A stretch of DNA of 61,140 bases. Origin: Lachnospiraceae bacterium A4. Its GTDB lineage: Bacteria > Bacillota > Clostridia > Lachnospirales > Lachnospiraceae. Under the pieces are notes generated by a model that was not told the DNA's origin, did not search any database, and saw only the letters and a list, made by a program, of their open reading frames with translations. Below are positions 457 through 61,140 of this stretch, piece by piece (position 1 is the stretch's first letter; the number at the start of each line of letters is the position of its first letter). Location of the stretch: positions 113,477 through 174,616 of the forward strand of contig KE159534.1 of NCBI GenBank assembly GCA_000403215.2. Direction: 5' to 3'. The position numbers and the translations under genes were made by a program.

Positions 457-660
457 ATGAAAGTAAGTTATAATCGTTTGTGGAAATTGATGATTGATAA
501 AAAAATGAAAAATTCGGAACTTCAAAAAAAAGCACAGATAAGCGGTAATATCATTACAAGGCTCAATAAAGACGAGTTTGTTTCTATGGAAACGATTGCA
601 AAAATTTGTGATGTGCTTGAATGCGGTGTTGACGATATTTTGGAATTTTCAAAAGAATGA
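457..660 (+). CDS. Small Cro/C1-type helix-turn-helix regulator
   Basis: A 67-residue protein that is essentially one HTH domain. Residues about 5-62 hold the pattern LWKLMIDKKMKNSELQKKA..SGNIITRLNKDEFVSMETIAKIC, typical of the YozG/HTH_26 type of small XRE regulators, ending with VDDILEF. The start ATG follows GGAGGG at 441-446. The next gene, a truncated hsdM, begins 14 nt after its stop, so the two were one transcription unit. Small XRE proteins are common partners of type I restriction-modification operons, so it probably controlled the operon now represented by the hsdM remnant. Confidence 0.85.
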   Translation: MKVSYNRLWKLMIDKKMKNSELQKKAQISGNIITRLNKDEFVSMETIAKICDVLECGVDDILEFSKE

Positions 661-673
661 GGAGGATATAGGA

Positions 674-1288
674 GTGGCAGCAAAAGCAAAGGCGAAAGAA
701 GTTTCTATGGAGGAGGCTCTATGGAAGTCTGCGGATAAATTAAGAGGTTCGGTAGAACCATCTGAATATAAGCATGTCGTTTTAAGTTTGTTTTTCTTAA
801 AGTTTGCAAGTGATAAATTTGAAGCTCAAAGAGCAAGAATCATTGCAGATGGTATGGAAAAATTTGTGGATAATATTGCGTTCTACACAAAAGATAATGT
901 GTTCTATTTGCCGCAGGAAAGCAGATGGACTTATATTATGGAGAATGCTAAGCAAGATGATATTGCTTTAAAAATAGATACAGCGCTCTTTACAATTGAG
1001 AAAACAAATCCTATTTTAAAAGGTGCTTTGCCAGATAATTATTATTCCCGTTTACAGATTGATACAGTCAAATTGGCATCTTTGTTAGACGAAATCAATA
1101 AGATTGACACGACAAAGGATAAAGAGAACGATATGATTGGTCGTATGTATGAATATTTCCTAAGTAAGTTTGCGATTGCAGAGGGAAAAGGGAAAGGAGA
1201 ATTTTATACGCCGAAAACGATTGTAAATTTAATTGCAGAGTTGATAGAGCCTTACGATGGAACATTATATGATGAGGCAGTTGCGTGA
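674..1288 (+). pseudogene. hsdM: 5' fragment of a type I DNA methyltransferase gene
   Basis: Starts at GTG 674 after GGAGGATATAGGA. It encodes the HsdM N-terminal helical domain (EALWKSADKLRGSVEPSEYK, FLKFASDKFEAQ) and the opening of the methylase domain (GEFYTPKTIVNLIAELIEP). The frame then leaves the family after GTLYD, where the SAM-binding motif should follow, and ends 204 codons in. There is no catalytic NPPF motif. The breakpoint is near 1272. It differs from the intact hsdM at 5979-7766 and is a remnant of a second type I system; nothing recognisable as its own hsdS or hsdR is present. Confidence 0.85.
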
Positions 1289-1551: not shown

Positions 1552-4500
1552 TCAATTTGTTTCACCGTGTAGTTCACGATATAACCGCTCTGCAAGAGCC
1601 TGCTGGATGATGCGATATTTCTCTGCATCAAGGAAGAGCTGCTCGTATGCTGCCATGTCATCCATGTATGCTTGTTGTGCGGTCGATTCAAAAATGCCGG
1701 GGAAAATGCTACGCTCGTATACCTGACGGTCGTTGCTCTTGGCAGCCTTTTTGACTTTGGCATCCCGTTGCATCTTTTTATATAGGGTATCCACGATCAC
1801 GCGATCCGTTTCTGTGAAATCACCGAAAAATTCCTCGTTGATTCTGGCGATAATCTCATCCAGAGGACTGAGTCTATCCTTCTGCCCTCCAGCCCGTTTC
1901 GGCTGCGTGGGTTTGTAGGAGCCGGGGGTGGCCTCCAATTCAATCGCACCTTCAAAGGTCTTTTCAAGACGGTAATATTCGAGCTTCACTCTATTATCCA
2001 GGTCAAAGGGCTGCACAGGGTCGGAAGGTAGCAGTTTGGCGAGGTAGGAGCATAGAACATATTCCTTGTGAAGATCTTTATCAAACATCCGGGTAATCTG
2101 CGAAATGTAGTTATACCATTTCACAAAGGCTCTGACTTCGCGGCGGAATTGGTACCGCTGTTCCTGATTCAACAGATTGTAGTTGTCTGCCAATGGCTTG
2201 AGGACATTGGAGATTTTTCCCTGTGTCGCATTGGCTTTGCGTACATCCGGGTCAAAGTAAATCTCCGACACTGTCTCGATATCCTCATCTGCGTACACCT
2301 GGAAGCCACGCAGGATTTTCTGAGTGGTGTATATCAGGTCGAAGTTAATCTCCTCATCAAGGCTTGTTTCCTGGTAGAACTGTTGGAATGCCTCGCGGAT
2401 GCACTCGACATCATTGACGAAATCGAGGACATAAGTATCCTCTTTGCCGGGATATGTTCTATTCAGACGACTCAGGGTCTGCACCGCTTTCACATCCCGC
2501 AGTTCCTTATCCACAATCATGGTGTGGAGCAATGGCTCATCAAAGCCCGTTTGGTACTTTTCTGCGACAATAAGAATATGCCCCTCATCATGGAACACGC
2601 TCTTGGTTTGGCTTTCTTTGACACGGTTTCCGTTGCTGTCCACATTCATAGAGCTCTCGGTGTACTCTGGGCTGTCTGGGATATCTGGATCTTTAAGGCT
2701 ACCGCTGAAAGCAATCATGATTTCGATATCGTCATAACTGTTTTGCTCCAGATACCGCTTGATTTCATGATAGTAGCGCACAGCGGCAAGCCGAGAAGCA
2801 GTAACGACCATCATTTTTCCGAGACCGCCAATCTTTTTCTTTGTGACATCTCGGAAAGTTTCTACAATAATCGCAGCTTTCTGCTGGAGGTTATGTGGAT
2901 GCAGTTCCTCGTAGCGTCGTATTGTTCGCACAGCCTTGGAAGTCGGCACATCTGGGTTATCCGGCACATTCTTGGCAATCTGGTAGCACATTTTATAGGT
3001 AGTGTAATTTGCCAGCACATCTAGAATAAAGCCCTCTTCAATTGCCTGACGCATGGAGTAAATGTGGAATGGATGGAAAGAACCATCTGGGTGTGGCTCA
3101 CCAAAAATTTCCAGTGTTTTTCCTTTGGGTGTGGCAGTGAAGGCAAAGAAGCTCAGATTTTTGTGTTTGCCCTGACTGAGCATATCCTGTACCAGAATGT
3201 CCTTTTTTTCAAGTTCCTCGACCGCTTTTTCTTCCAGCTCGGCATATTCCTCCAAGGCATCCGAAATGTCAGCAAGAGCGGCTTTCAATTTCAATGCGGC
3301 TTGTCCAGTCTGGCTACTGTGTGCTTCGTCCACGATGATGGCATAGTGCTTGCCAACAGCGGATTCTACCTGTTCATAAATGACCGGGAACTTTTGCAGC
3401 GTGGTGACGATAATGCGCTTACCCTTGTTGATGGCATCACGCAAGTCAGCAGAGGTTTTCTTGTCATCAATGGTAGCCACGCTGCCGAGTGTATGGTCAA
3501 AGCTGGAAATGGTCGCTTGTAACTGCTGATCCAAAACACGACGGTCGGTTACAACAATCACGCTGTTGAAAACAGGCTCGTTGTTATCGTTATGCAGACT
3601 TGCCATGCGATAGGCGGTCCAGGCAATGGAGTTAGATTTGCCTGATCCTGCACTATGCTGAATCAGATAGTTATGTCCAGAACCGTTCCTGCGGACATGG
3701 TCGACCAGTTTCCGCACCACATCCAATTGATGGTAGCGCGGGAAGATGATCTTCTCTGCCTTTTTGATATTGGTAGAACCATCCGGCAGCGTTTCCTTTT
3801 TTTCGGTTTTTTCATAGCTGATGAACTTTTGAAGAATGTCCAGCAGATTGTCCTTTTGCAGAACATTCTCCCAAAAGTAAGCGGTCACATAATCACCATT
3901 TTTGTTTTCAGGATTCCCCGCGCCACCATCCTGTCCCGCACCATTGCTGCCCTGGTTGAAAGGCAGGAAATTGGTCATGGGACCGTCCAGACGGGTAGTC
4001 ATGTAGACATCGTAAAGGTCGCAGGCAAAATAAGCCAGAATACGCTTGTTGAAGCCGAAAACAGGCTCCTTGGCATTCCGATTGTAAGCCCACTGCTTTT
4101 TCCCGTCATCCACGGACTGCCCGGTCAGCTGGTTCTTCAACTCGATAGCAATGACCGGGATGCCGTTGATGGCAAGCATCATGTCGATGGTGTTGTTGTT
4201 CTGCTCAGAGTAATGCCACTGGCGGATGCACTGGCAGATATTCTGCCGATAATGAGCCCAGGCAAGCTCGTTCAATTCGGATTCCGGCTGGAAGTAGCAC
4301 ACACGGAAAGCAATGCCACGGTGCTTGAATCCATAGCGAAGGACAGAAATCAGACCGTCCTGAGTGACGGCGTTTTCAAAGGACTTATAGAACTGTCGCA
4401 CAGGGTTGATGGTACACATCCTCTCGAACCGCCGCCATGCCATCGGCTGGGTGGCTTTGACAAATTCGGTCAACGTTACGATGTCTAGATTCATACCCTT

Positions 4501-4668
4501 GTATTCTTCGCTGCGCATTCCAGCATCCGTGGCTTTCGTCCAGCCTCCATCTTCCGAAATGAGGTAGGACTCTATGAATGCCTCGAATGTTTTCTCCGAT
4601 TCGTCCATGCCTTGGATACCTTCATAATATGCCTTTGCACGGTCTTGAAATCCCTTATCTTCATTCAT
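1552..4668 (-). CDS. hsdR: Type I restriction enzyme, R subunit
   Basis: A 1038-residue ATP-dependent translocase/endonuclease that cuts DNA away from the recognition site when complexed with HsdM and HsdS. Visible motifs: nuclease signature D162 with E176-L-K178 (AIELKNQ); Walker A AGSGKS at about 340-345; DEAH box at 447-450 ([12 protein letters not shown]); motif VI-like [13 protein letters not shown]. Length is normal for the family. It is the last gene of the minus-strand operon, starting 3 nt after the end of hsdS. All catalytic motifs look intact. Confidence 0.95.
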
Positions 4669-4671
4669 GGG

Positions 4672-5982
4672 TCACATCACCTTTCGTTTTCCTGTTACTG
4701 CGTCATATATTATGGAGCGTTTATAAAACTCCAAATCTTCTAACAAGGATTCTTTTTCCTTAATTAGAGAGTCAATAGTAGAACATTTTTTGTTCAGATA
4801 CGTTGCAATTCTTCTCTGCTCTTCAATAGTAGGAGGAAGCACAACAGGCATATCGTATATTATTGTTTTAGTTAAGTTTAGGATAAAAGAGCCTCTGCAA
4901 TTCACTTCTATAAATTGATTGTAGAAAGAACTTTTCGCAAAGAACCAAAGGAAGAAATTCATATCAATAACATCCTCTTTAATCCTGAACTTTGCCAATC
5001 GCTGATTTATTATTCCTTCAGGCATATCATCAGTAATCAGCATGGCTCTTCCAAGCGAACCTACAATTGGAAAGATAATATCTCCATTTTGCACAAAGAA
5101 TTGCGACATGTCTTCCCGTCGTTCTTCTGGTAGATACAGATTTTTTTCGTTTTCAACGCTTTGCTTTGCAATGTGTTCTGGAGTGTATACTAAAATGTTT
5201 CCAGTAGAATCAAGTTTGTCGGTAATAAGTGAACTACCAAAGGGTCCTGCTTTATAACCATCGACAAGATATCTCATTCTCACAATCGAGCTACGCTCTG
5301 GAATGTGACCAATCCAATTAATCCCGCTATCTTTCATTGGGACTGTCGCGTCCAGCCCTTGGGTCAACGCACAAAAAATCACAGATTCTTTCCACTGTTT
5401 ATATTCAGAAATAGTATCTTTTGCTTCCTGAATAATGGTATCGATTTGTGAGCACTTGTTATCAAGAAATCTTGAAATAGCCTTTTGCTCATCAATAGGT
5501 GGAACGGGAAGAACAAAATTCAAAAACATATCGGCTGGTAAACGCCAGCGCCCGAATCCTGCAACGCCTTGTCCCAGTCCATAGAAAATGCGATTCATAT
5601 AACAGTATTGGAAAATATATTTGTAGTAATCTGAATCGAAGGTTTCCGGTGAATTATTAAGAAAAACACGATAATCTGGACTGGTAACACCTTCATAGGC
5701 TGAAATATCGACCCACCCCGTCAGCAAGTCCATATGGTTCATCACAAAATCTCCAATATGAACGAGTTGATAATTCGAGTAGTCTTTTGCAAACTGTCCC
5801 TTATCGTACATCTTTTTAGGTACAATGCCATGCTGGGTTACAGAAAGTACAGTATGGCCTGTTTCTCCTGCAATATCCTTTTGGATGGAAAAAGCATATT
5901 TGAGAAGGCGAGTCCCCCATGTGGAAGGAATATAACCCAACCATTTAGTACGGCTGTCTTTCATGATTTCATATGTGTTCAT
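4672..5982 (-). CDS. hsdS: Type I restriction-modification specificity subunit
   Basis: A 436-residue DNA-recognition subunit with the usual two target-recognition domains. Each ends in a coiled-coil spacer: RFLDNKCSQIDTIIQEAKD in the middle and YLNKKCSTIDSLIKEKESLL at the C-terminus, and the second half restarts with GINWIGHIPE. The duplicated layout is typical of HsdS binding a bipartite site. Its ATG overlaps the hsdM stop by 4 nt, implying translational coupling. I see no inverted repeats or spare TRD cassettes nearby, so there is no evidence of an inverting shufflon. Confidence 0.95.
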   Translation of the reverse strand: MNTYEIMKDSRTKWLGYIPSTWGTRLLKYAFSIQKDIAGETGHTVLSVTQHGIVPKKMYDKGQFAKDYSNYQLVHIGDFVMNHMDLLTGWVDISAYEGVTSPDYRVFLNNSPETFDSDYYKYIFQYCYMNRIFYGLGQGVAGFGRWRLPADMFLNFVLPVPPIDEQKAISRFLDNKCSQIDTIIQEAKDTISEYKQWKESVIFCALTQGLDATVPMKDSGINWIGHIPERSSIVRMRYLVDGYKAGPFGSSLITDKLDSTGNILVYTPEHIAKQSVENEKNLYLPEERREDMSQFFVQNGDIIFPIVGSLGRAMLITDDMPEGIINQRLAKFRIKEDVIDMNFFLWFFAKSSFYNQFIEVNCRGSFILNLTKTIIYDMPVVLPPTIEEQRRIATYLNKKCSTIDSLIKEKESLLEDLEFYKRSIIYDAVTGKRKVM

Positions 5983-7766
5983 TCCTCATCTACCTTTCCA
6001 AACAGCATTCGTAGTTTCTCCATTAGGCTGCGTTCATGGGCCTCAATGCGCTTTGCAATTTCATCTGCCGGTTCCAGTTCTTTGTACTCATAGAACGTCT
6101 TGGTAAACGGAATCTCATAGCCGACCTTTGTTTTGCTCTTGTCGATCCAGGCACTGGGACGGAACGGAAGAACTTCTCGCGCAAAGTATGCGTTGATATC
6201 CTCATCCAGGGGGATGGTTTCCGTATCCCGCTTGGATGTATCCGCGACAGGTTTTCCTTTTTTCAAAATAGGTTCTCCATTATCGTCGAGCTTAGGGCTT
6301 TCGACTGTGATTTTATTATAGCCAAGAGCGATGGCATTCATCCGCTTGCTTTTAACAGTGATGGCTTTGCCATCGGCAATTTCCGCCGTATAGGTTCTGT
6401 CGGTGTACCCACCATAAGCTTGAATAATAAGATTGCGGCAAACTTCCGTTATATCTACACGCTTATTGCCAATGGGCTTTCTGCGCTGCTCATAGCACCC
6501 GCTGGAATCAATCAGCAGGACGTGTTCCCGATGAGAAAGTGGCTTATCCTTGGTGATGATCCAGATATAGGTAGCAATGCCCGTGTTATAAAAGCTATTA
6601 TTCGGGAGTTGCACAATGGCATCCAGCCAATCATTCTCTATAAGATATCGCCTGATTTCGCTTGGTCCACTGCCGGCATCTCCACTGAACAGCGAGGAGC
6701 CATTCTGGATGATTGCCATGCGACCGGTGTCCTTCAGCTTTGCTATGCCATTCAGCATGAAAAGCATCTGCCCATCAGACTTCTGTGGCAAGCCAATACC
6801 AAAGCGTCCGGCATCGCCCAACTTGTATTCCTTTTCTACATCGGGAGCCTCCCGTTTCCAATCGATACCAAACGGAGGATTGGAGATCACATAGTCAAAG
6901 GTATAACTAGGAAATTTGTCATCATTCAGTGTGTTTCCGAACTGCATATTCTCAGGGTCGCCACCACGGATGAGCATATCCGCTTTTGCAATGCCAAAGG
7001 TAAAAGGATTGATTTCCTGTCCATAACAGATGATGTCCGCCTCGCTGTCTAGCGCCTTAATGCGTTCCTCCATGCAGGTGAGCATCTGGCTCGTTCCCAT
7101 CGCCATATCATACACGGTCTTGGCGGGAGCGTCTGGCGTGGAGAGGTCGGCATTCATTGTCAGCATATCGCACATCAGATAGATGATATCGCGGCTGGTG
7201 AAGTGGGAGCCTGCCTCCTCATCATAGCTCTCGGAAAACCTCTGAACGAGGTTCTCGAAGATGTAACCCATGTCAATGGCAGAAATCTTATTGGGACTCA
7301 TATCCGCATTGTCTTCACAAAAATCGCTGATGACTTGGTACAGAACACCTGCATCGCTCATACGGTCGATTTGGTCATAGAACCCCATCCGCGCCAGGAT
7401 GTCCGCAACATTGTCGGAGAACCCTGCGAGATATGCTTCAAAGTTCACCTTAATGTTTTCGGGGTCGGCCTTCAGCTTTTCAAAGGTAAAGGGACTGGTG
7501 TTATAAAACCTCAAGCCTCCAGTGGCAGCACGGAGAAATCCATCCCGCACAGCCAGATGCTTGATTTTTTCGTATGTCTCCACCACCTTGTCATGAGTAG
7601 GCAGAAGGCAATCGTGGAAACGCTTGATGACTGCCATCGGAAGGATGACAAGACCATACTCGTGAGGCTTATACGCTCCAAACAGAGAATTTGCCACATT
7701 CCAGATAAGGTTTGCTTTCTCTTGTATGTTGATTCCAACTGCTTTAATTTTATCGTTAGAGTTCAT
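5979..7766 (-). CDS. hsdM: Type I DNA methyltransferase (N6-adenine), M subunit
   Basis: A 595-residue modification subunit that methylates adenine with SAM. Residues 186-198 hold SHFTSRDIIYLM, 296-300 the catalytic NPPFG. The SAM-binding motif I at 218-229 reads VYDMAMGTSQML: it keeps D and GT but lacks the usual PxxGTGG, a variant worth noting. The start follows AGGAGGG with 9-nt spacing. It overlaps the upstream ISL3-like gene by 11 nt and the downstream hsdS by 4 nt, so the whole operon is one tightly coupled message. Confidence 0.94.
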   Translation of the reverse strand: MNSNDKIKAVGINIQEKANLIWNVANSLFGAYKPHEYGLVILPMAVIKRFHDCLLPTHDKVVETYEKIKHLAVRDGFLRAATGGLRFYNTSPFTFEKLKADPENIKVNFEAYLAGFSDNVADILARMGFYDQIDRMSDAGVLYQVISDFCEDNADMSPNKISAIDMGYIFENLVQRFSESYDEEAGSHFTSRDIIYLMCDMLTMNADLSTPDAPAKTVYDMAMGTSQMLTCMEERIKALDSEADIICYGQEINPFTFGIAKADMLIRGGDPENMQFGNTLNDDKFPSYTFDYVISNPPFGIDWKREAPDVEKEYKLGDAGRFGIGLPQKSDGQMLFMLNGIAKLKDTGRMAIIQNGSSLFSGDAGSGPSEIRRYLIENDWLDAIVQLPNNSFYNTGIATYIWIITKDKPLSHREHVLLIDSSGCYEQRRKPIGNKRVDITEVCRNLIIQAYGGYTDRTYTAEIADGKAITVKSKRMNAIALGYNKITVESPKLDDNGEPILKKGKPVADTSKRDTETIPLDEDINAYFAREVLPFRPSAWIDKSKTKVGYEIPFTKTFYEYKELEPADEIAKRIEAHERSLMEKLRMLFGKVDEE

Positions 7767-9102
7767 ATTCCCGTGCCCTCCTGATATTTTCTGATATATT
7801 GTTCATATTTTGTGTCAGCCGAGAGGTATGAATCCCTAGCCGGTACTTTTCACCATCCATTTCGATAGTGTCATGGCTGATCGTGAGAAAGCACCTGGCT
7901 CTCAACACATCGAATATACAGTGCGGCATTCCGTGGAATGCATCGCATATCGCTTGAATGGCTGTCGGATAAAAGTCCGGTAATTTTTCTTTTTCTTTAA
8001 AACAACGTATCTCGCTCTCGAATAGGTCGACTGCATCCGAAAGATTGAGAAACTCCGGCAACTCATCTGGCAGACTATGTATCCACTCGCTGACACTTTC
8101 GTAGTTCCATTCTTCCTGCAAAGAATCCATCAATGACTGATGTTTATCGTATGCCAATTTCAGGCGAGGACGGCTCGATAATCCATCCTTGATGCGTTTC
8201 CGCTCATAGTCGCTCTGGAGAAGCCTATTTTGGATGGTGAGTGCGTTGTCTTTGAATTTCACAGGGAATCGCTTCCCATCCTCATGTATGATTTCAAGCA
8301 TTGCGTTCTTGGCGTACCGGAGGATGCACTCATCGGTGACTACAAATTCCGCTCCGGGGAAGGCAACCGCCGCCGCATTACGGATATCTTCCAGCGGGTC
8401 CATGTAAACCGTTTCCACCCGGGTAGAGTCCAACCGACGCAGGAATTCAAGAATCGTCCCTTCGAAAGTATCCGGAAGGATATCCATACAGTAGATGCCA
8501 TCATCTAAAAGGGCAAAAATCACAGTGTACAGCTCCCTGTAATAAGTAATCTGCATGATGCCAAGTCGCTTCGGGGTACTTATGGGCTTGAGTTGAGACT
8601 CTCGATGTTGAATTCTTCGCCGCATGATTGGCCCAATAGACGCCGTGGACGCGGGGATCCCGTAATACGCACAGACTTTCTTGTAGGAGAAACGGAAGGT
8701 CCCATCAGCGAGAGCATCGGACAGACGGTTGGTATACCTGCATCCCTTGTCCCCAAAATCGATTGGCTCTGGGAATACGATGTCGCTACAGCCATCACAG
8801 CGGAGATACCGCTGATGGAATACGATGTCGATAACCCGAAACTTTCGGTGGGTGAATCCGTTCTCGTTTGTGGATTCCTCGCCCCAAAGGATGTCTTTGA
8901 AGGAGCGCCTGACCACTTTGGAAGTCCTCGTCTTCTGTGAACCGCAAGCGGGGCAGGGCAATTTATCGTCTTCAAAATACCGCGCATGGACGGTGCAAAA
9001 GCAATCATCCGTGCTTTCCTTCAAGGCGAGGAGTCCATCAATTCCGAGTTCATCTGTTCTTTCTCGTGACACGTTACTTTTTCTGTATAGCCGCTTACCC
9101 AA
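7756..9102 (-). CDS. ISL3-transposase-like protein, first gene of the type I RM operon
   Basis: A 448-residue protein with the layout of ISL3-family transposases: an N-terminal zinc ribbon (CPACGS ... LRCDGC), a helical DNA-binding stretch (RLSDALADGTFRFSYKKVCAYYGI), then a DDE-like core with IFALLDDGIYCMDILPD and VYMDPLEDIRNAAAVAFPGA. The usual C-terminal E-(G)-x-NN motif reads TSRLTQNMNN, so the expected catalytic Glu appears to be Gln. The C-terminus is also short and runs into hsdM (11-nt overlap). Start chosen at TTG 9102, 7 nt after GAGGAG; an upstream TTG at 9165 is really part of the -35 box. No inverted repeats surround it. I infer a domesticated transposase serving the RM operon, role unknown. 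Confidence 0.75.
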   Translation of the reverse strand: MGKRLYRKSNVSRERTDELGIDGLLALKESTDDCFCTVHARYFEDDKLPCPACGSQKTRTSKVVRRSFKDILWGEESTNENGFTHRKFRVIDIVFHQRYLRCDGCSDIVFPEPIDFGDKGCRYTNRLSDALADGTFRFSYKKVCAYYGIPASTASIGPIMRRRIQHRESQLKPISTPKRLGIMQITYYRELYTVIFALLDDGIYCMDILPDTFEGTILEFLRRLDSTRVETVYMDPLEDIRNAAAVAFPGAEFVVTDECILRYAKNAMLEIIHEDGKRFPVKFKDNALTIQNRLLQSDYERKRIKDGLSSRPRLKLAYDKHQSLMDSLQEEWNYESVSEWIHSLPDELPEFLNLSDAVDLFESEIRCFKEKEKLPDFYPTAIQAICDAFHGMPHCIFDVLRARCFLTISHDTIEMDGEKYRLGIHTSRLTQNMNNISENIRRAREYEL

Positions 9103-9136
9103 AGGTACACTCCTCCCCTCCCATAGACTACATTTT

Positions 9137-9165
9137 ATTATACCACCATAAACCAAATAGAACAA
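9137..9165 (-). promoter_or_regulatory. Promoter of the type I RM operon
   Basis: On the minus strand TTGTTC (9160-9165) is followed after 17 nt by a perfect TATAAT (9137-9142), about 35 nt before the TTG start at 9102. It should drive the whole leftward operon. Confidence 0.7.
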
Positions 9166-52430: not shown

Positions 52431-52856
52431 ATGACCGAAGGACAGAAAACACAGATTGCAAATCTAAGGGGCGAAGGTTATGGGTATGTGAGGATTGCCC
52501 AGGCTCTCGGTATATCAGAAAATACAGTGAAATCATTTTGCAGGAGGAAGAAGCTTACCGGGAAAGCGGCTTCCCAGACCATGCCAGCCATGGCCAGGGA
52601 TGGGAAGCATTTCTGCCCTTGCTGTGGGAAAGAAGTGGCGCAGACTCCTGGGAGGAAGGAGAAAAAGTTCTGCTCGGACAGATGCCGGAACAAATGGTGG
52701 AACAGCCATCTTGACAGGGTAAAGCGTAAAGCCAACTACGAGTTTATCTGCCCGCAGTGCAGAAAACCGTTCACAGTCTACGGCAATGCAAAAAGGAAAT
52801 ACTGTAGCCATGAGTGCTATATTGCCCACAGGTTTGGGGGTGGCGCGGATGACTGA
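52431..52856 (+). CDS. HTH plus zinc-ribbon protein of the recombinase operon
   Basis: A 141-residue protein. Residues 1-40 form a sigma-like HTH (TQIANLRGEGYGYVRIAQAL, GISENTVKSFCRRKKL). Then come two Cys-rich zinc ribbons (FCPCCGKEV ... FCSDRCRNKWWN and FICPQCRKPF ... YCSHECYIAH). It starts the operon with the SHOCT-like protein and two serine recombinases, an order seen repeatedly in Clostridia, so it may regulate or assist recombination. It is also a candidate ligand for the 34-bp motif. Confidence 0.85.
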   Translation: MTEGQKTQIANLRGEGYGYVRIAQALGISENTVKSFCRRKKLTGKAASQTMPAMARDGKHFCPCCGKEVAQTPGRKEKKFCSDRCRNKWWNSHLDRVKRKANYEFICPQCRKPFTVYGNAKRKYCSHECYIAHRFGGGADD

Positions 52857-53034: not shown

Positions 53035-53068
53035 AGAGTGATGTATGGTAGCGGAAAGGAGTGATTTC

Positions 53069-54841
53069 ATGGCGAAGATCAGAAAGATTGAGCAGACGAT
53101 GCCAGCTATTGCGCCCAGGAAAAAAGTGGCCGCTTACGCCCGTGTGTCTGTGGAAAGCGAGAGGATGAGCCATTCCCTATCCGCACAGGTCAGCTATTAC
53201 AGCGCGCTGATTCAGCGTAACCCTGACTGGGAATACGCCGGGGTATATGCGGATTACGGGATCTCCGGCACTGGCACGGCCAGGAGGGAAGAATTCAGGA
53301 AAATGGTAGAGGATGCGGATGCCGGGAAAATCGACATCATCCTAACCAAGTCGATACAGCGTTTTGCGAGGAATACGGTTGACCTTCTGGAGACTGTACG
53401 GCATCTGAAAAGTATCGGCGTGGAAGTGAGGTTTGAAAAGGAAGGGATAAGCTCCATGAGCGGCGACGGCGAACTGATGCTGACCATCCTCGCGTCCTTT
53501 GCCCAGGAGGAGAGCCGATCCATCAGCGATAATGTGAAGTGGGGCACCCGCAAGCGGATGGCGGAGGGAATCCCCAACGGGCGTTTCCGGGTATATGGTT
53601 ACCGATGGGAGGGGGACGCACTGGCCATTGTGCCAGAGGAAGCGGCGGTGGTCCGCAGGATTTTCCAGAACTTCCTCGATGGGAAGTCAAGGTTGGAAAC
53701 GGAGAGGGAGTTTGCCGCTGAAGGCATCACCACGAGGGATGGCTGCCGCTGGGTGGATTCCAATCTCAAGGTTGTCCTTACGAACATCACTTATACGGGC
53801 AGCCTGCTCCTGCAGAAAGAGTTTATCGCAGACCCCATCACCAAGCACAGGAAGAAGAACCGTGGCGAGCTTCCGCAATATTATGTGGAGGGCACGCATC
53901 CCGCCATCATTGATAAGGACACTTTTGATTATGTGCAGGCGGAGATGGAACGCCGCAGGGAACTTGGCGCGCTGGCGAACAAGAGCCTCAATACCTGCTG
54001 CTTTACCGGGAAAATTAAATGCCCTCATTGCGGCGTCAGCTATATGCACAATAGGCGCACGGACAGAGGATTGATGGAGTTTTGGAACTGCGGCAGCAAA
54101 AAGAAAAAGAAGGTCGGCGCTGGCTGTCCGGTAGGAGGGACGATCAACCACCAGAACCTTATGAAAGCCTGTGCGGATGTTCTGGGGACGGAGGGGTTTG
54201 ATGAGGATGTGTTCCTTGACAGGGTTGACCATATAGAGGTGCCGGAGAAATACACGCTCGAATTATTCTTTAAAGACGGGAACCGCATAATCAGGGACTG
54301 TCCGAACACAGGACACCAGGACTGTTGGACGGCGGAATACCGTGCCGCCACATCTGAGAAAAGGCGGAAGTATGGGACGAACCCCAGGGGCGCGACCTGC
54401 TTCACAGGCAGGATTAAATGCGCCGAGTGCGGGAACAATTACCGCCAGCAGACGAGGAAGCGGAAGAATGGTGAAAAGTACCATATGTTTTCCTGCGCCA
54501 CCACGAACACCTGTGGCAACAACAGCATCCATGAGGACGACCTCCAGAGGCTTTCCGCCGCAGCCATGGGGCTTGATGCATTCGATGCATCGGCTTTTTC
54601 TGAGAGGATTGACCATGTTGTGATTTCCAAAGGCGGCAGGATCGCATTCCATTTCAAAGATGGCGGGATTCATGAGGCTTTCTACAGCACTAAGCGCAGG
54701 GCGCAGCCATGGACGGAAGAACGCCGGAAAAAACAGGCAAAGGCGATCAGGGACAGCTTTACCGGGGAACCGCGGCAGAAGATGAGCGAAAGCACGAAGC
54801 GTCTCAGGAAGGAGCGTGGGGACGGATGGCGAAGAGAGTGA
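53069..54841 (+). CDS. Large serine recombinase 1
   Basis: A 590-residue large serine recombinase. Catalytic Ser27 in AAYARVSVESERMSHSLSAQ, then TKSIQRFARNTVDLLETVRH and SFAQEESRSISDNVKWGTRK. A recombinase domain follows, then two zinc ribbons (CPHCGVSYMH, CAECGNNYRQ) and basic C-terminal helices. Start ATG 53069 behind GGAAAGGAG, preferred over 53045. It overlaps recombinase 2 by 16 nt; both are probably needed for integration or excision. Confidence 0.94.
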   Translation: MAKIRKIEQTMPAIAPRKKVAAYARVSVESERMSHSLSAQVSYYSALIQRNPDWEYAGVYADYGISGTGTARREEFRKMVEDADAGKIDIILTKSIQRFARNTVDLLETVRHLKSIGVEVRFEKEGISSMSGDGELMLTILASFAQEESRSISDNVKWGTRKRMAEGIPNGRFRVYGYRWEGDALAIVPEEAAVVRRIFQNFLDGKSRLETEREFAAEGITTRDGCRWVDSNLKVVLTNITYTGSLLLQKEFIADPITKHRKKNRGELPQYYVEGTHPAIIDKDTFDYVQAEMERRRELGALANKSLNTCCFTGKIKCPHCGVSYMHNRRTDRGLMEFWNCGSKKKKKVGAGCPVGGTINHQNLMKACADVLGTEGFDEDVFLDRVDHIEVPEKYTLELFFKDGNRIIRDCPNTGHQDCWTAEYRAATSEKRRKYGTNPRGATCFTGRIKCAECGNNYRQQTRKRKNGEKYHMFSCATTNTCGNNSIHEDDLQRLSAAAMGLDAFDASAFSERIDHVVISKGGRIAFHFKDGGIHEAFYSTKRRAQPWTEERRKKQAKAIRDSFTGEPRQKMSESTKRLRKERGDGWRRE

Positions 54842-56400
54842 CGACAATACCCGCGACGGTAAAAAAATATACGGCTGAGCCGCTGGCCGGGACAAAAAAG
54901 CGGCGTGTAGCGGGATACGCCCGTGTCAGCACCGACCATGAGGACCAGGTCACAAGCTACGAGGCGCAGGTGGACTATTATACCAGTTACATCCAGGGGC
55001 GTGACGACTGGGAATTTGCCGGAATATATACGGACGAAGGTATCAGTGCAACTTCCACTAAAAAACGGGAAGGCTTTAAAACAATGATTGCCGATGCGAA
55101 AGCTGGAAAAATAGACCTCATCATCACCAAGTCGGTCAGCCGTTTTGCGAGGAACACAGTAGACAGCCTTACGACAGTCCGAGAGCTGAAGGACAGGGGC
55201 ATTGAGATATATTTTGAAAAAGAGAACATCTGGACGATGGATTCCAAGGGGGAACTGCTGATCACCATCATGTCTTCGCTGGCACAGGAGGAGAGCCGCT
55301 CCATTTCGGAGAATGTCACTTGGGGGCAGAGGAAGCGTTTTGCCGATGGAAAGGTCAGTTTTGCCTACAGCCGGGTCCTTGGCCTGGATAAAGGACCGGA
55401 TGGCAGGATCGTGGTGAATCCCAAGGAAGCTGAAACAGTGCGGCTGATATTCAGCTTATTACTTGAAGGGCTTTCTCCCCATTCCATTGCGGCAGAGCTT
55501 ACCAGGCGCGGCATCAAGACACCGGGCGGGAAAGATGTGTGGAACCAGCAGACGGTGCGCCGGATGCTTTCCAACGAAAAATACAAGGGAGATGCCCTCC
55601 TCCAGAAGGAATTTACGGTGGATTTCCTGAATAAGAAGACGAAAAAGAACGAGGGTGAAGTCCCACAGTATTATGTGGAGGGAAACCACAAAGCCATCAT
55701 CAACCCTACAGTTTTCGATATGGTGCAGGCGGAGCTGGAGAAACGGAAACGGGGCAACTCCCGGTACAGCGGGGTCAGCATCTTCTCCAATAAGATTAAA
55801 TGCGCTGACTGCGGCGGATGGTTTGGCTCCAAGGTCTGGCATTCCACGGATAAGTATCGCAGGGTCATTTACCGATGCAACAGCAAATATAAGGATAAAA
55901 AATGCGGGACTCCCCATGTGACGGAAGAAGAGGTCAAAGCGGCATTCCTATCCGCCTATGACAAGCTGGTTTCTGAAAGGGCGGAGATTGTAGCGAATGC
56001 GGAAACTATCCGGGAGACACTTTGCCGGACGGATGCGCTGGAGGAAGAGAAGCGCAGATTGGAAAACGACATGGCGGTGTTGGCGGGGATGGTGCAGAGT
56101 GCCATAGATGAGAACGCCCGTATAGCGCAAGACCAGGGGGAATACCAGGAACGCTATAATGGGCTGGTGGAGCGGTATGATACGTTTAAAGCACGGTACG
56201 ATGAGGTTGCCAGAGCCATTACGGAAAAGGAAGCGCAAAATGAGCGGCTGGCAGGCTTCATCAAAATTTTGAAGGCTCAGGATGGAGTCATTGCTGAATT
56301 TGATGAAAGACTTTGGAGCAGCATGGTGGATTTCGTGACGGTTGGTAGGAATAAGGAAATGACGGTGACTTTCCGAGACGGCACGGAGATAACAGCATAG
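54826..56400 (+). CDS. Large serine recombinase 2
   Basis: A 524-residue large serine recombinase. Catalytic Ser35 in AGYARVSTDHEDQVTSYEAQ; TKSVSRFARNTVDSLTTVRE; zinc ribbon CADCGGWFGSKVWHS; long coiled coil near the C-terminus (EEEKRRLENDMAVLAGMVQS). Start ATG 54826 after AGGAGCG; the upstream extension of the frame is a shadow of recombinase 1. The att site normally lies close to such a gene at the element's end, here probably 56400-56600. Confidence 0.94.
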   Translation: MAKRVTTIPATVKKYTAEPLAGTKKRRVAGYARVSTDHEDQVTSYEAQVDYYTSYIQGRDDWEFAGIYTDEGISATSTKKREGFKTMIADAKAGKIDLIITKSVSRFARNTVDSLTTVRELKDRGIEIYFEKENIWTMDSKGELLITIMSSLAQEESRSISENVTWGQRKRFADGKVSFAYSRVLGLDKGPDGRIVVNPKEAETVRLIFSLLLEGLSPHSIAAELTRRGIKTPGGKDVWNQQTVRRMLSNEKYKGDALLQKEFTVDFLNKKTKKNEGEVPQYYVEGNHKAIINPTVFDMVQAELEKRKRGNSRYSGVSIFSNKIKCADCGGWFGSKVWHSTDKYRRVIYRCNSKYKDKKCGTPHVTEEEVKAAFLSAYDKLVSERAEIVANAETIRETLCRTDALEEEKRRLENDMAVLAGMVQSAIDENARIAQDQGEYQERYNGLVERYDTFKARYDEVARAITEKEAQNERLAGFIKILKAQDGVIAEFDERLWSSMVDFVTVGRNKEMTVTFRDGTEITA

Positions 56401-56504: not shown

Positions 56505-56533
56505 ATGACAAATAGCAAAAGATAAGTTATAAT
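56505..56533 (+). promoter_or_regulatory. Promoter of the right-hand five-gene operon
   Basis: ATGACA (56505-56510), 17-nt spacer, perfect TATAAT (56528-56533), about 55 nt before the HTH gene. Confidence 0.75.
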
Positions 56534-56589
56534 AAATTATCCGATTTGTGAAATTAATAGAGTGACGAGTAAAAAATAGGAGCATAAGC

Positions 56590-56832
56590 ATGGTTCGAAA
56601 TAATATAGAAGTGGATGTTAAAGTCAAATGTATAGAATCCGAAATAACTCAGGCGCAGCTAGCGGAAAATATTGGGACTACCAGTTCTTATGTGAATCGT
56701 ATTGTCAAGAAAAAAGAAGGGGTCGTTAATAAGACATTTGTGCAAATGATGGAGGCTTTGGGATATGATATTGAATTGATTTATACAAAAAGGGACATGG
56801 AAGGTGGTAATCATAATGGGGATGTCTTATAG
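56590..56832 (+). CDS. XRE-family regulator of the right-hand operon
   Basis: An 80-residue HTH protein (EITQAQLAENIGTTSSYVNR, IVKKKEGVVNKTFVQMMEAL, GYDIELIY). It is the first gene behind a canonical promoter and overlaps the nuclease-like gene by 17 nt, so it may be an autoregulator or antitoxin-like controller of the cluster. Confidence 0.85.
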   Translation: MVRNNIEVDVKVKCIESEITQAQLAENIGTTSSYVNRIVKKKEGVVNKTFVQMMEALGYDIELIYTKRDMEGGNHNGDVL

Positions 56833-57192
56833 GCACTCAGCCGGATTTGGAAAACGAATGGAATACAGAATAATTGGAAAGATGCTGATGGAAGGGCTGG
56901 ACTGCTATGTTCCTTTGGTGGATGACCATGGAGTTGATTGTGTTATCAAAAGGGGGATGGTACATACATAGAAGTGCAAATTAAAGCGAGATTCCGCGAA
57001 GTGGCAGAAGGAGATGCTGCATTGTTTTCAGCGATATCACATGAACGGAAGGAAAATTTTTATTTTGTTTTTTATTCAGAGCACCTTGATTTGACATGGA
57101 TTCTGTCTTCAGAAGAATTCTTGAAAGAGTGTGTAACGAATAAAACCGGAAAGAATGCCGGGAAAAGAAGCATCTGGTTTAATTGGGAATAA
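56816..57192 (+). pseudogene. PD-(D/E)XK-like nuclease gene with a frameshift
   Basis: From ATG 56816 (AGGTGG upstream) the frame reads GFGKRMEYRIIGKMLMEGLD, CYVPLVDDHGVDCVIKRG and then stops. The continuation is in another frame: DGTYIEVQIKARFREVAEGD, FYFVFYSEHLDLTWILSSEE. One missing G in the run at 56952-56956 rejoins them into about 125 residues with D ... E-V-Q-I-K, the active-site pattern of Mrr/DUF4365-like nucleases. Either decay, phase variation at the G-run, or a sequence error. Confidence 0.75.
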
Positions 57193-57293
57193 AACGGACG
57201 GAAATGGAGAGAAAAAAGAATACTGCAAGCCGCAGTTTGAAAAATACATCTGTAATGATTTTTCAAGGTTTTACTGAATAGGAGAAGGAAGTT

Positions 57294-57485
57294 ATGAGAA
57301 GCACGGAACGAGGATTCGTAAACAGAAATCGACAGAAGAATAATGGGAGAACGCAGATACCTGGCACAGATAATCAGCAATGGTTTTATGAAATGGAGTG
57401 CTTGGGATGTGGCCATAAATATTATGCCAATGGAAGTGATATCTGGCAAAGGAAATGCCCGAGATGCCAGGGAGGCAGGCCATAA
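57294..57485 (+). CDS. Zinc-ribbon mini-protein
   Basis: A 63-residue protein with one C4 zinc ribbon (ECLGCGHKYYANGSDIW, then RKCPRCQGG) after a basic N-terminus. The gap before it (57193-57293) holds two adjacent hairpins (CTGC/GCAG and TTGAAAAAT/ATTTTTCAA). It starts behind GGAGAAGGAAG and ends 23 nt before the next gene. Zinc ribbons of this kind often give nucleic-acid binding to a partner. Confidence 0.75.
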   Translation: MRSTERGFVNRNRQKNNGRTQIPGTDNQQWFYEMECLGCGHKYYANGSDIWQRKCPRCQGGRP

Positions 57486-57508
57486 CATTCCAGGAAAGGA
57501 AACAGGGT

Positions 57509-58195
57509 ATGGGTAATATAACAGAGGAAGAGAATAATCCGTTTGCAGAGCTAAGGACTTACAATCCAGATATAATAGATGATGGGGTTGTAGACGAAGA
57601 AGGATATCTATCTGCAAAATATAAAATCATGTATGTGCTGAAAGAGGTTAATGGTGGGAAAGGCTGGAGCCTTCGGGAATTTGTACGGAATGGTGGCCGA
57701 CCCCAGACATGGGATAATTTTGCCCGGTGGACAGAGGCTATTTTGGATTTGGATGCGGAGAGACCATGGAGTTATTGGGAAAAGGATAACGAAGCCCGTA
57801 GGAACAGAATCCTGAAAATGATTTGTGCTGTCAATGTGAAGAAGACATCCGGTGGACATACATCAAATGCAGATGAGATTTATCAGGCTGCAATAGATAA
57901 CAGCCTCATCCTTCAGAAGCAATTAAACTTGTATGATCCGGATATTATCATCTGCTGTGGCACGGAAAAAGCATTTGTCGATGCATGCTATAAAAATCAA
58001 GAACTGAACTGGAAAATGACATCACGTGGAATTTGGTATTTTGTAGATAATGGTAAAGTTGTAATTTCTTTTGCCCATCCAGAAGCACGAGTCAAAGACT
58101 GTTTTTTACATTATGCTTTGGTGGATGCGGTAAGGGAAATCCGATTAAAAGAGATTAACTCAATTTCTGCATTAGACAAACCGTTTATTGATTGA
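57509..58195 (+). CDS. Uracil-DNA-glycosylase-fold-like protein
   Basis: A 228-residue protein starting at ATG 57509 behind AGGAAAGG. KYKIMYVLKEVNGGKGWSLR resembles the motif I loop of the UDG superfamily, DIIICCGTEKAFVDACYK the central strand, and KVVISFAHPEARVKDCFLHY the HP motif loop. These support a UDG-like fold; the general-base Asp of classical UDG is not evident, so glycosylase activity is uncertain. It could be a sensor of modified bases or nucleotides in a defence operon. Confidence 0.55.
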   Translation: MGNITEEENNPFAELRTYNPDIIDDGVVDEEGYLSAKYKIMYVLKEVNGGKGWSLREFVRNGGRPQTWDNFARWTEAILDLDAERPWSYWEKDNEARRNRILKMICAVNVKKTSGGHTSNADEIYQAAIDNSLILQKQLNLYDPDIIICCGTEKAFVDACYKNQELNWKMTSRGIWYFVDNGKVVISFAHPEARVKDCFLHYALVDAVREIRLKEINSISALDKPFID

Positions 58196-58205
58196 GGTAA
58201 AGCAA

Positions 58206-59111
58206 ATGAAAATGGAGTATATTTTTATAAAGCAAAAAGATGAATATTGTGTATCACAAGAAATGTTCCGAAATTTTTTGTGTGTAAATAAGCGTATTGA
58301 ATTCAAAAACGAAGAAGACAATAAATCAGATATAATTATTTTCGATGGACAAAAACTTGAATATGGTTTGGAGTCAACTGAAGTTGAAAAATCTAATGAA
58401 ATGATTTTTCATCTAATGGTTGAAGTGCAAGGAGACGGAGAAGCTCAGGCAGGCATATTAGAACATTTTGATTTTCTTATTAAAGAAATTAATGAAAAAA
58501 ATGGGACGCAATTTGCTATTAATACTGTATGGAATGATGTTTCGTCATATTATGGAAAGAAACTGTATCCGGATATTTCAAAAGTGGAGAATATGCTACG
58601 AAAAATTATATACCTGTTTATGCTGAAAACAGTTGGGAGTAAATGGATTGATGTAGGCACGCCTGAAAAATTTCAAATAAGTATCAATAATGTAATTGAG
58701 AAGAATAATAAAACGAAAAATGACATTAATGCAGAATGGCTTACATATGCAGATTTTATTACTCTTGGTTATTTTTTTACTGCGCCATATTCGATGAAAA
58801 CAGATTTAAAAGTTCTATTCAAAGAACTTAAACAATATGAAAGTTTTGATGCATTGAGTGATGGGGAAAAACAGGCAGATGATGAAGTTAAAAAAGAAAA
58901 TAAAGAGAAGGGGAAAGTACTGACAGCAGATGTTATAAGAAAAATGTCCGATGAGTATGAACCAAAGAATAATTGGGATCGATATTTTTCAGATAAATTG
59001 AGTGTCAAAGGACCCAATAAGTTTTCAAAAGACTGGGGTTCACTTTATGATATTCGTAATAAGGTAGCCCATGGAAAACCAATAAATAAAGCAGACTTTA
59101 AAAAAGCTTGA
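58206..59111 (+). CDS. HEPN-domain protein truncated by the IS element
   Basis: A 301-residue protein starting at ATG 58206 (AGGTAAAG upstream). The C-terminal part has SLYDIRNKVAHGKPINKADF, whose R-N-K-V-A-H is the R-x4-H signature of HEPN ribonucleases. The last codons and stop come from the IS end at 59107, so the C-terminus is cut just after the catalytic motif. It is AT-rich, unlike the prophage. The N-terminal domain (MEYIFIKQKDEYCVSQEMFR, LMVEVQGDGEAQAGILEHFD) is unrecognised and may be the sensor. Probably inactive or altered as sequenced. Confidence 0.78.
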   Translation: MKMEYIFIKQKDEYCVSQEMFRNFLCVNKRIEFKNEEDNKSDIIIFDGQKLEYGLESTEVEKSNEMIFHLMVEVQGDGEAQAGILEHFDFLIKEINEKNGTQFAINTVWNDVSSYYGKKLYPDISKVENMLRKIIYLFMLKTVGSKWIDVGTPEKFQISINNVIEKNNKTKNDINAEWLTYADFITLGYFFTAPYSMKTDLKVLFKELKQYESFDALSDGEKQADDEVKKENKEKGKVLTADVIRKMSDEYEPKNNWDRYFSDKLSVKGPNKFSKDWGSLYDIRNKVAHGKPINKADFKKA

Positions 59112-60715
59112 CAGTTGAAAGTTTGTACCACTAAGAAGCCAGAAAATCCCATTGTTCTTCTGACTTTTCCTGTAGCCTCTGAATTATTCGCGTTATGTAT
59201 AATTCGGGTTTTTGCGCCAAAAGGCGGAAAAAATGTTTTCGGAAGTAGTACATAAGGGTGGCTTCCGAAACCCTTCCTTGGGAAGGTGTCCTCTGGTAAC
59301 GGATCTGGCTAGAACTAACCTTCCCAATAAAGCAGATAGAAAGGCTCTGCAGAATTCCCATTGCAATACAGGACAGTGCCATGTGCATCTCAATGGCACG
59401 AACGGCTTCCAACACTTTTTGGCGGGGTTTTTCACCTTCCACCCTCTCCATGGGCGTAGGCTCCCCTTTCTTCTGGTAGTAGCTTAGCTTCGGCATGTAC
59501 TTTGACCAGAAGTGGTAACAGAACGCCCCAATCTGCTGCTTCAGTTCGCGGAATGTACATTCAATCCGGAACCGGTAGCTGTAGAGCCGGATGATGGACA
59601 GCGGATCCAGCTCCAGGCTGGTGCTTGCAAGGATGCCCTGGACGCCATTCATTTCCACCAGGACGAAGCGCAGTTCCTGATACAGCTTCTGCCCCCATAA
59701 CAGGTCAATGCAGTAGTAACGGATGGATTCCCTTTTTCCATAAAGTTCAATCTCCGTTTTCTGGAATTGCCCCCCGCGTGAAGCGAACAGTTCTTTCAGG
59801 TGGACAGCCGCTCCTTTTTTGGCAGGCCGTCCCCTTCCGGGTTTGCGGGGGCCTGGCCTTTCAAATGCGGTACAGGACTTTTTGGCCTTGGTGACGATCT
59901 CCATGTGTACATCCCCGCTGCCGTTGAGGGATTTCAGCTTTTCAAGTGCCGGTACAGTAAGAAAATATCTGTCCAGCAAGAGCAGGGAATTCCCAAAAGT
60001 AAGGGCTGCGCGATAAGCATCTTCCACCATCTGCACCACATGGGAAGCCTCAGAAACAGATGCGCCTTTCCACTCCATGGCAGCCTGCAGGCCGTCATGG
60101 AGCCGGATACTCAAAGGAATGCAGGCCCAATTCCGTACACTTCCGGCTAAGATGCCAAGACCACCGAACATATGCCCATGGATGTACTCCGGTTTTGCGG
60201 AGTTTTCGGATTCCTGGAACAGCTTTTTCACCCCTGGCATACGGCGCCCTTCCTTGGACTGCTTCACCCCGTCGCCCACAAGGACGTGGTAGTTCCCCTC
60301 CCTATAGAGGGGAGCATACAGCCTGACAGCGGAGAACCAACGTTTACGGATTTCCTCCAACGACCATGAGGATGCCCTGAAAAAATGCAGCATGGAATCA
60401 TAGCAGCCCGGACTTAGTGCAAGGTCACGGATGACAGAAGTGACACCAAGTTTATCTGAACGGAGCATAAGCCCTATGATAATGGTTACAAACCAGCGGA
60501 AAGCAGCCTTGCGGGAAAAACAGGATTCAAAGTGGCATAAAACATTTTCAATAAAATTCATCATAATCGTATGGTTAACCACTGGAAAGTATGGTAAACT
60601 CATACATGAAATAACTCTTTCAGTGGTTTATATCTTTCTTAAGTGTTGCAACTTAAAGATACCATAAATCCATACGAAAGGGTTATTTTTTTATTGAGAA
60701 CTTTCAACTCATAAG
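59107..60715 (-). mobile_element. Complete IS4-family element, 1609 bp
   Basis: Ends share imperfect inverted repeats (CTTGACAGTTGAAAGTT at 59107 and CTTATGAGTTGAAAGTT on the complement at 60715, 14 of 17 identical). One transposase gene fills it. No matching target duplication is visible in its flanks, which would fit a past rearrangement between this copy and the inverted copy at the window's left edge. Confidence 0.85.
59131..60603 (-). CDS. IS4-family DDE transposase
   Basis: A 490-residue transposase. First Asp in YHVLVGDGVKQSK, second in LLLLDRYFLTVP, and the Glu in YSYRFRIECTFRELK, which fits the IS4 signature Y-(2)-R-(3)-E-(6)-K exactly. Zinc or basic linker RKPGRGRPAKKG near the middle. 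It has no frameshift, so the element may be active. Start ATG 60603. Confidence 0.95.
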   Translation of the reverse strand: MSLPYFPVVNHTIMMNFIENVLCHFESCFSRKAAFRWFVTIIIGLMLRSDKLGVTSVIRDLALSPGCYDSMLHFFRASSWSLEEIRKRWFSAVRLYAPLYREGNYHVLVGDGVKQSKEGRRMPGVKKLFQESENSAKPEYIHGHMFGGLGILAGSVRNWACIPLSIRLHDGLQAAMEWKGASVSEASHVVQMVEDAYRAALTFGNSLLLLDRYFLTVPALEKLKSLNGSGDVHMEIVTKAKKSCTAFERPGPRKPGRGRPAKKGAAVHLKELFASRGGQFQKTEIELYGKRESIRYYCIDLLWGQKLYQELRFVLVEMNGVQGILASTSLELDPLSIIRLYSYRFRIECTFRELKQQIGAFCYHFWSKYMPKLSYYQKKGEPTPMERVEGEKPRQKVLEAVRAIEMHMALSCIAMGILQSLSICFIGKVSSSQIRYQRTPSQGRVSEATLMYYFRKHFFRLLAQKPELYITRIIQRLQEKSEEQWDFLAS

Positions 60716-61140
60716 TAATATAGATATTACCAAGAAATATTTGTCAATTGATCAGGACGAAAAAGACAATCTTTTTCTCAAATTGAATCTATAAGATTAT
60801 GTTTTTGGGATTGTTAAAATGTTGTTAATAGCAACTTTTGGTAATTGTGGCATTTAAAGTATGTCACGACAAACGCATGAATGAACATTTTGTTAACAAA
60901 ACTAATTAAGTATGCAGAATAACTTTTCAAAGTTGAATATTTATACAAGATGACTTGAAATACTAGTCAAAAATTGTCCAGATTTTAAGTTCTGGTAACA
61001 CTCTGTTCATAGTTTATTCATTCATACGTATGTCGTGAAAGTATGTCAGGGTTGTTTCACGAAGAATAATTGAAACTAATAGACACGGCATTTTTACGAG
61101 GTATATGGAAGCTATACATATTTTCCATATCCCTCGACTT
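60716..61140. other. AT-rich intergenic region with a 20-bp inverted repeat
   Basis: No ORF with a ribosome site is visible. TCACGACA...ATGAATG at 60864-60883 is inverted at 61019-61038 with 18 of 20 positions matching. AAAGTATGTCA occurs directly at about 60857 and 61038. TTTTGTTAACAAAA (60888-60901) is a perfect palindrome. These look like protein-binding sites upstream of a gene beyond the window. Confidence 0.5.

Follow-up and report, generated by a model that had tools for sequence, protein, structure and literature searches.

A probable antiphage cargo cassette in a prophage that splits hsdM of Lachnospiraceae bacterium A4

Defence-gene hotspots in prophages have been described for P2- and P4-like phages and for Vibrio and Bacillus prophages (Rousset 2022, PMC9122126). 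Serine-recombinase elements inserted in the methyltransferase gene hsdM are known among the Tn1549-type integrative and conjugative elements (ICEs; PMC4701971, PMC7563491); a Tn1549 in hsdM is also tabulated with a tyrosine enzyme (PMC9652813), unlike the serine enzymes of PMC4701971. Brig1 and Brig3 are reported as antiphage enzymes of the uracil-DNA glycosylase (UDG) superfamily that excise phage bases (PMC11078745, PMC13160076). Here, we describe a 61,140-nucleotide stretch of Lachnospiraceae bacterium A4 (assembly GCA_000403215.2, contig KE159534.1, positions 113,477–174,616; hereafter the window), which corresponds to IMG/VR record IMGVR_UViG_2600255157_000001 and forms the end of contig C8 in a draft genome of 6.96 Mb. 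It carries a cassette of five genes, encoding an XRE-type helix-turn-helix (HTH) regulator, a PD-(D/E)XK-like protein (NUC), a zinc-ribbon-like small protein (ZNR), a UDG-like protein and a Swt1-type HEPN protein. The explanation that we favour, with reasonable confidence, is that a temperate phage residing in the host hsdM carries these genes as accessory cargo, in a slot between serine recombinases and attR. There, the HTH protein most likely regulates its own expression, and the exchangeable modules behind it most likely shield the lysogen against infection by other phages.

The position of the cassette follows from the way in which the contigs join. The HEPN gene (58206–59111, forward strand) is interrupted by an IS701-like insertion sequence (IS; 59107–60716, reverse strand; Pfam DDE_5, with the NCBIfam IS701 models below cut-off). 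A second contig, C36, starts with the end of the same IS. Next come seven bases identical to those just before the IS in the window, and the HEPN gene then resumes (bases 145–834), as in the uninterrupted copy at locus L045, to which bases 145–297 are 89% identical. C8 therefore continues in C36, the IS having inserted with a 7-base target duplication, and truncation of the HEPN gene by an IS-linked deletion is ruled out by the tail and the duplicated target at the start of C36. The IS has 44 matches in its own genome (itself and fragments included; about 77–100% identical), one of them at the very start of the window. The ∼425 bases that follow the HEPN-breaking copy (60716–61140) do not continue the HEPN gene; misassembly at this 44-match repeat may account for them.

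Shortly after the HEPN stop codon, C36 picks up hsdM at motif I (Pfam N6_Mtase). Behind it lie two genes that by eye resemble hsdS and hsdR, separated by a DUF4365 protein and then one further frame. The N-terminal part of the split host hsdM lies at the opposite end of the window (578–1273, forward strand, within an open reading frame spanning 578–1288), with attL at about 1273. The intact hsdM of locus L167 aligns to C36 from base 965 and to window positions 759–1273, both at ∼95% identity and with four bases in common; on the attL side the identity is 94.6% over 515 bases, which is as far as the L167 hsdM sequence in the comparison extended. Because one intact gene matches both flanks, the alignment places the prophage within the host hsdM, from window position 1273 to C36 base 965 (L164), and other readings would need a second rearrangement. 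The gene is split in the codons of catalytic motif I, and on both phage ends the arms of TTGTATCA are inverted relative to each other. The phage nature of the element is confirmed by a terminase, an endolysin, a DNA polymerase and two integrases. A preliminary description, made from the sequence alone, had put the cassette beside the prophage; the mapping of attL and attR rules this out, since the split hsdM places it inside, next to attR, with the type I restriction–modification (RM) genes of the prophage (1552–7766) next to attL. Scans of the window for tRNAs and with Rfam at the gathering threshold gave no match.

The cassette opens with a promoter (−35/−10 pair ATGACA-17-TATAAT, 56505–56533, forward strand), the identical pair being found in L045. 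An operator-like imperfect dyad (56535–56555, forward strand) lies directly 3′ of the −10 box and is followed by the intact HTH frame (56590–56832, forward strand; Pfam HTH_3). The five-gene cassette is thus confirmed, as is its layout as tightly packed genes behind one promoter; the HTH gene, which travels with other cargo, is assigned to the slot and not to the other four genes. A strict promoter pattern fits only 29 of 64 HTH upstream sequences and was replaced by a motif search; the sequences searched (window, L045 and 62 others) reduce to 44 that are non-redundant. These share a 30-base motif, TGgTACAATAAATTATCcGATTtGTGtAAt, which scores 22.6 bits versus 8.0–8.4 bits in four letter-shuffled sets (searched with fewer restarts than the real set) and puts the imperfect dyad straight behind the −10 box. 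Complementarity of the dyad arms peaks at a single register (147 of 264 cells, 56%, versus 6–40% at other registers) and one position pair covaries (G-C 9, A-T 19, A-C 6, G-T 1, other letters 9; n = 44; Fisher p = 6 × 10−4), with the register picked after viewing the sequences and a statistic that ignores relatedness. In the simplest reading, the dyad would be the operator of an autoregulated promoter, through which the HTH protein also governs the cargo behind it, of whatever kind. Most likely, the regulator binds this dyad, which covers the transcription start, and holds its operon in check; in a lysogen with the phage inserted in hsdM, the HTH-controlled promoter would drive the cargo.

The slot recurs in other phages. 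A scan of viral contigs with the HTH protein gave 63 loci, the window included, and close relatives occur in two GenBank phages, with different genes after them. In one phage the relative directly follows the serine recombinases, and in the other a single gene intervenes. In the window, large serine recombinase 1 (53045–54841; PHROG 95 integrase, E = 8.4 × 10−131) and recombinase 2 (longest open reading frame 54709–56400; Pfam Resolvase, Recombinase and Zn_ribbon_recom; PHROG 95), both on the forward strand, precede the HTH gene, the latter immediately upstream of the cassette; searches with recombinase 2 used 54823–56397. Among 64 loci (the 62 other viral loci and the two phages, near-duplicates kept), two have no HTH frame and three have too little upstream sequence; a recombinase lies at most 350 bases upstream of the HTH gene in 48 of the 59 testable loci, further off in two and was not found in nine. 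Downstream, 55 loci yielded 112 genes (at most three per locus) that fall into 69 clusters. Two hallmarks of a prophage defence hotspot, fixed flanks within phage genomes and variable cargo, are thus present.

Several cargo genes match known defence families. The PADLOC scan covered 27 cluster representatives, each a first gene that translates cleanly into at least 110 residues, with 32 later representatives outside it. At E ≤ 10−5, 11 of the 27 have matches: GmrSD-type, RhuM-type (PDC-S05) and type IV restriction proteins, AbiH, an HNH restriction enzyme, a DrmC-like phospholipase D, a DUF262 protein (NsnA), a type I methyltransferase/HSDR_N-like protein and the candidates PDC-S63, PDC-S21 and PDC-S14. 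Two later slot genes picked by eye also match (PDC-M33A and PDC-S11). Among random control clusters upstream of the HTH gene, three of 20 match. One is a type II enzyme, another, on L100, fits a reverse-transcriptase model weakly, and the third is a GmrSD gene which, lying between recombinase and HTH gene, is itself slot cargo. The enrichment of the slot in defence genes is suggestive rather than proven.

The UDG-like protein (57509–58195, forward strand) is intact. A fold search with its predicted structure model supports the UDG α/β fold proposed in the preliminary description. Residues E46, N109 and H190-P191 are invariant in 24 of 24 close relatives; N109 and H190-P191, but not E46, remain so in 13 of 13 more diverse ones, and the A4 protein retains the family-conserved residues. 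By motif order, we take these to be the acidic motif A, the Asn and the His-Pro motif B of UDGs, of which only the His-Pro part was aligned (to 4zbx). Profile searches gave no repair-family match at cut-off, searches of phage records gave no relatives, no PDB chain named Brig is among the sequence matches, and no Brig entry is among the 50 fold-search matches listed, with kinship still possible. The protein probably inspects incoming DNA for non-standard bases and perhaps excises them. The family is a promising candidate new defence enzyme. A relative (42% identity) in a plasmid of Vibrio sp. HDW18 (L036/L064) is a solo gene in a cassette-like array, near a SIR2 protein.

The HEPN protein reaches the cut-off of Pfam HEPN_Swt1 (PF18731; 27.6 bits in the window and 30.1 in L045, cut-off 27.5), and its R-x4-H motif (R284…H289) is invariant in four of four relatives, in agreement with the earlier assignment. 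Outside the HEPN region no Pfam model matches at cut-off, including along the long C-terminal tail encoded on C36, and a search of PDB sequences gave no convincing match. Relatives occur in three of 299 family genomes (A4 included) and in two plasmids, one an unannotated Persicobacter record; in a Nostoc plasmid, a relative lies between brxC and pglX of a BREX locus. The protein probably cuts RNA.

NUC (56816–57277, forward strand) is broken into three pieces (56816–56971, 56938–57192 and 57155–57277), with frame breaks relative to the intact relatives at L070, L081–L085, L088, L154 and L155. The core D…(E/Q)xK residues D41, Q55 and K57, presumably catalytic, are invariant in nine of nine relatives. 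In the search with the L070 relative, PDDEXK_5 (22.0 bits, cut-off 26.1) and DUF4365 (18.3 bits, cut-off 24.3) stayed below the Pfam cut-offs. The nuclease-like assignment is thus weaker than those of the UDG-like and HEPN proteins, and we call NUC only PD-(D/E)XK-like; it may cut DNA or support a restriction enzyme. NUC relatives at 73–80% identity are present in five of 298 other family genomes, one at 60% in an alphaproteobacterial plasmid and others on two viral contigs near serine recombinases; phage records yielded none, and PDB sequences no convincing match. By eye, the neighbours form an hsdR–NUC–hsdM–hsdS–ZNR operon in L084 (539–7123) and include helicase and dynamin-like genes in L081 and L082. 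On viral contig L154 (7367–8486), the NUC relative lies in the region behind the serine recombinases without the HTH gene, opposite a frame that resembles, by eye, a slot gene of L099/L104. ZNR (57294–57485, forward strand; weak Zn_ribbon_8 match) is intact and 84% identical to its L045 counterpart. The end of a 210-residue protein in L084 matches it at 74% identity, and relatives occur in three of 299 family genomes (A4 and G494 among them). The damage to the HEPN and nuclease genes noted earlier is therefore real, and with two of four effectors broken the A4 cassette is at best half active: at most ZNR and the UDG-like protein could work.

The preliminary description had joined these proteins into a single pathway that senses altered bases and then degrades RNA, i.e. 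a dedicated five-part antiphage system in which base recognition by the UDG-like protein triggers the HEPN RNase and the nuclease. We consider this unlikely. Tight spacing speaks for it, as do the L084 operon, in which NUC and a ZNR-bearing protein share a type I RM-like setting, and L045, where all five genes occur in the same order, four of them 84–87% identical, behind the tail of the same recombinase (by eye). Co-occurrence in another genome is thereby established; the L045 nuclease frame is also disturbed, with unread bases in the sequence, and its HEPN frame reaches the contig end. A pattern-limited scan for the UDG family across 84,980 species, one genome each, located close relatives at 26 loci: L045 with all five genes, one decayed copy (L070) and 24 without the other members, where a chance-level HTH at L054 is the only partner and several contigs are short. 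L070 has a shortened HTH gene, an intact nuclease and heavily decayed UDG remnants beside what appears by eye to be an hsdM start, which was not found in the A4 genome. A further 18 UDG loci found otherwise also lack partners (at least two coincide with loci of the first set, L022 with L059 and L036 with L064), the HTH gene travels with other cargo, and NUC, ZNR and HEPN occur apart. The scans rule out the five genes as a widespread unit, and no paper on this set is among the matches listed from the open-licence PMC literature. The parts of the cassette are thus mobile modules meeting in this slot, the co-occurrence in L045 being real but apparently due to the same phage lineage.

Modules of this kind might benefit the lysogen otherwise than against phages, for example through DNA repair by the UDG-like protein and toxin–antitoxin-like stabilization by the HTH/NUC pair and HEPN. 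This is rather unlikely in our judgement: the fold is indeed that of repair enzymes, some UDG relatives sit near housekeeping genes (by eye) or alone in the Vibrio array, and the HTH protein weakly matches antitoxin-type XRE families, below cut-offs, but the UDG-like protein matches no repair family at cut-off and the same slot elsewhere holds restriction- and Abi-like families. That the cassette is a decaying remnant with no present function would account for the broken nuclease, the interrupted HEPN gene and the decay of L070, but the HTH, ZNR and UDG-like frames are intact and the UDG-like protein keeps its conserved residues, making this quite improbable. Several observations weigh against a defensive cargo. 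No window protein strongly matches a named defence family, the best being HEPN with the candidate PDC-M34B (E = 2.6 × 10−5, PADLOC), and NUC matches no PADLOC model. The difference between 11 of 27 and three of 20 has a one-sided Fisher p of 0.054 (0.025 without the GmrSD control), 16 of the 27 first-gene representatives have no PADLOC match, and two of the 11 matches come from loci without a visible upstream recombinase (L097 and L142; contig too short and none found, respectively). Some slot cargo looks unrelated to defence, such as the acetyltransferases of L123 (by eye); NUC lies among ordinary genes in L085, and UDG relatives are mostly solitary, several next to housekeeping genes (both by eye). 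An antiphage role of the exchangeable cargo remains probable on the strength of the variable slot with its several defence-like cargoes, the NUC and HEPN relatives in restriction and BREX loci and the published UDG-superfamily defence enzymes (PMC11078745, PMC13160076).

Insertion in methyltransferase genes extends beyond A4. Of the 31 HTH loci with 2.5 kb or more of downstream sequence, six share the arrangement of C36, in which a conserved half-site (TTGTATCA or TTGTATTA, followed by GGCAAC) runs straight into methyltransferase motif I; L106 and L107, both among the six, are near-identical. A seventh, L138, has a methylase fragment whose first residue is roughly the same. The slot-family prophages that end at motif I are those of L089, L102, L106, L107, L109, L136 and L138, with a different, SNF2-like methylase as the target in L102 (by eye). 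The remaining 24 loci show neither arrangement and may reflect insertion elsewhere or longer cargo. The open-licence PMC literature gave no paper on hsdM-inserted phages among the matches listed. At its own attL, the A4 prophage carries, on the reverse strand, hsdR (1552–4668; Pfam HSDR_N, SWI2_SNF2 and T1R_D3-like), hsdS (4672–5982; Methylase_S) and hsdM (5979–7766; a 595-residue open frame with N6_Mtase and HsdM_N). We tentatively suggest a restriction takeover: this family of Clostridia phages may insert through the motif I (D-P-x-x-G-S-G) codons of host DNA methyltransferase genes, mostly hsdM, switching off the resident restriction while installing restriction genes of its own next to attL and, next to attR, an exchangeable immune cassette under HTH-operator control, which in this member would couple UDG-fold base recognition with a nuclease and a HEPN RNase. 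If insertion in methyltransferase genes is general, lysogeny would swap one restriction system for another in these hosts.

An ISL3-like transposase (7759–9165) adjoins the prophage RM genes. Upstream of the recombinases lies a small HTH/zinc-type protein (52431–52856, forward strand; weak Pfam matches) with a 52% identical relative in phage NatCom_43819. The far end of the record of that phage (L176, 6446–9396) holds one annotated restriction endonuclease and, by eye, a McrB-like frame.

The components recall described systems to differing degrees. With Brig1 and Brig3 the UDG-like protein shares the superfamily, and the same S. tokodaii UDG is named as the best structural match of Brig1 (PMC11078745, PMC13160076); the family keeps an invariant Asn (N109) where Brig1, matched by motif order only, is reported to have Glu. 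The R-x4-H motif is that of Swt1/Abi2-type HEPN proteins, Swt1-like members of which are reported in operons with RM components (PMC3710099), whereas the window protein has its long tail and no Pfam match beyond HEPN. NUC shows weak Pfam kinship to DUF4365/PDDEXK_5, and DUF4365 nucleases occur in short Argonaute SPARDA systems (PMC10810196); it is, however, a stand-alone 153-residue protein, and none of the five cassette genes looks Argonaute-like. The Tn1549-type ICEs that carry triplets of serine integrases (Ambroset 2016, PMC4701971) have in common with this prophage the serine recombinases, insertion inside hsdM, repeats of 2–8 bases and sometimes genes between integrases and target; unlike these conjugative elements, the present one is a phage, as its terminase, endolysin and DNA polymerase show, and it brings type I RM genes of its own near attL. 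At the slot, which lies between recombinase and att site and is headed by a single conserved HTH gene, Clostridia phages can be mined for defence genes not yet described, and the cassette adds a candidate UDG-fold family there, now that enzymes of this superfamily are known to act against phages (PMC11078745, PMC13160076). The closest parallel is with the hotspots of PMC9122126, which likewise combine a fixed prophage position with variable cargo that includes known defence families, the Bacillus example being flanked by a regulator on one side and, next to the integrase, by a peptidase gene on the other. Compared with the hotspots described there, this slot differs in lying between serine recombinases and attR, in its conserved XRE HTH head with an operator-like motif and in its Clostridia-type phages; it looks like a new instance of a prophage defence hotspot, with a head gene, motif and att site of its own.

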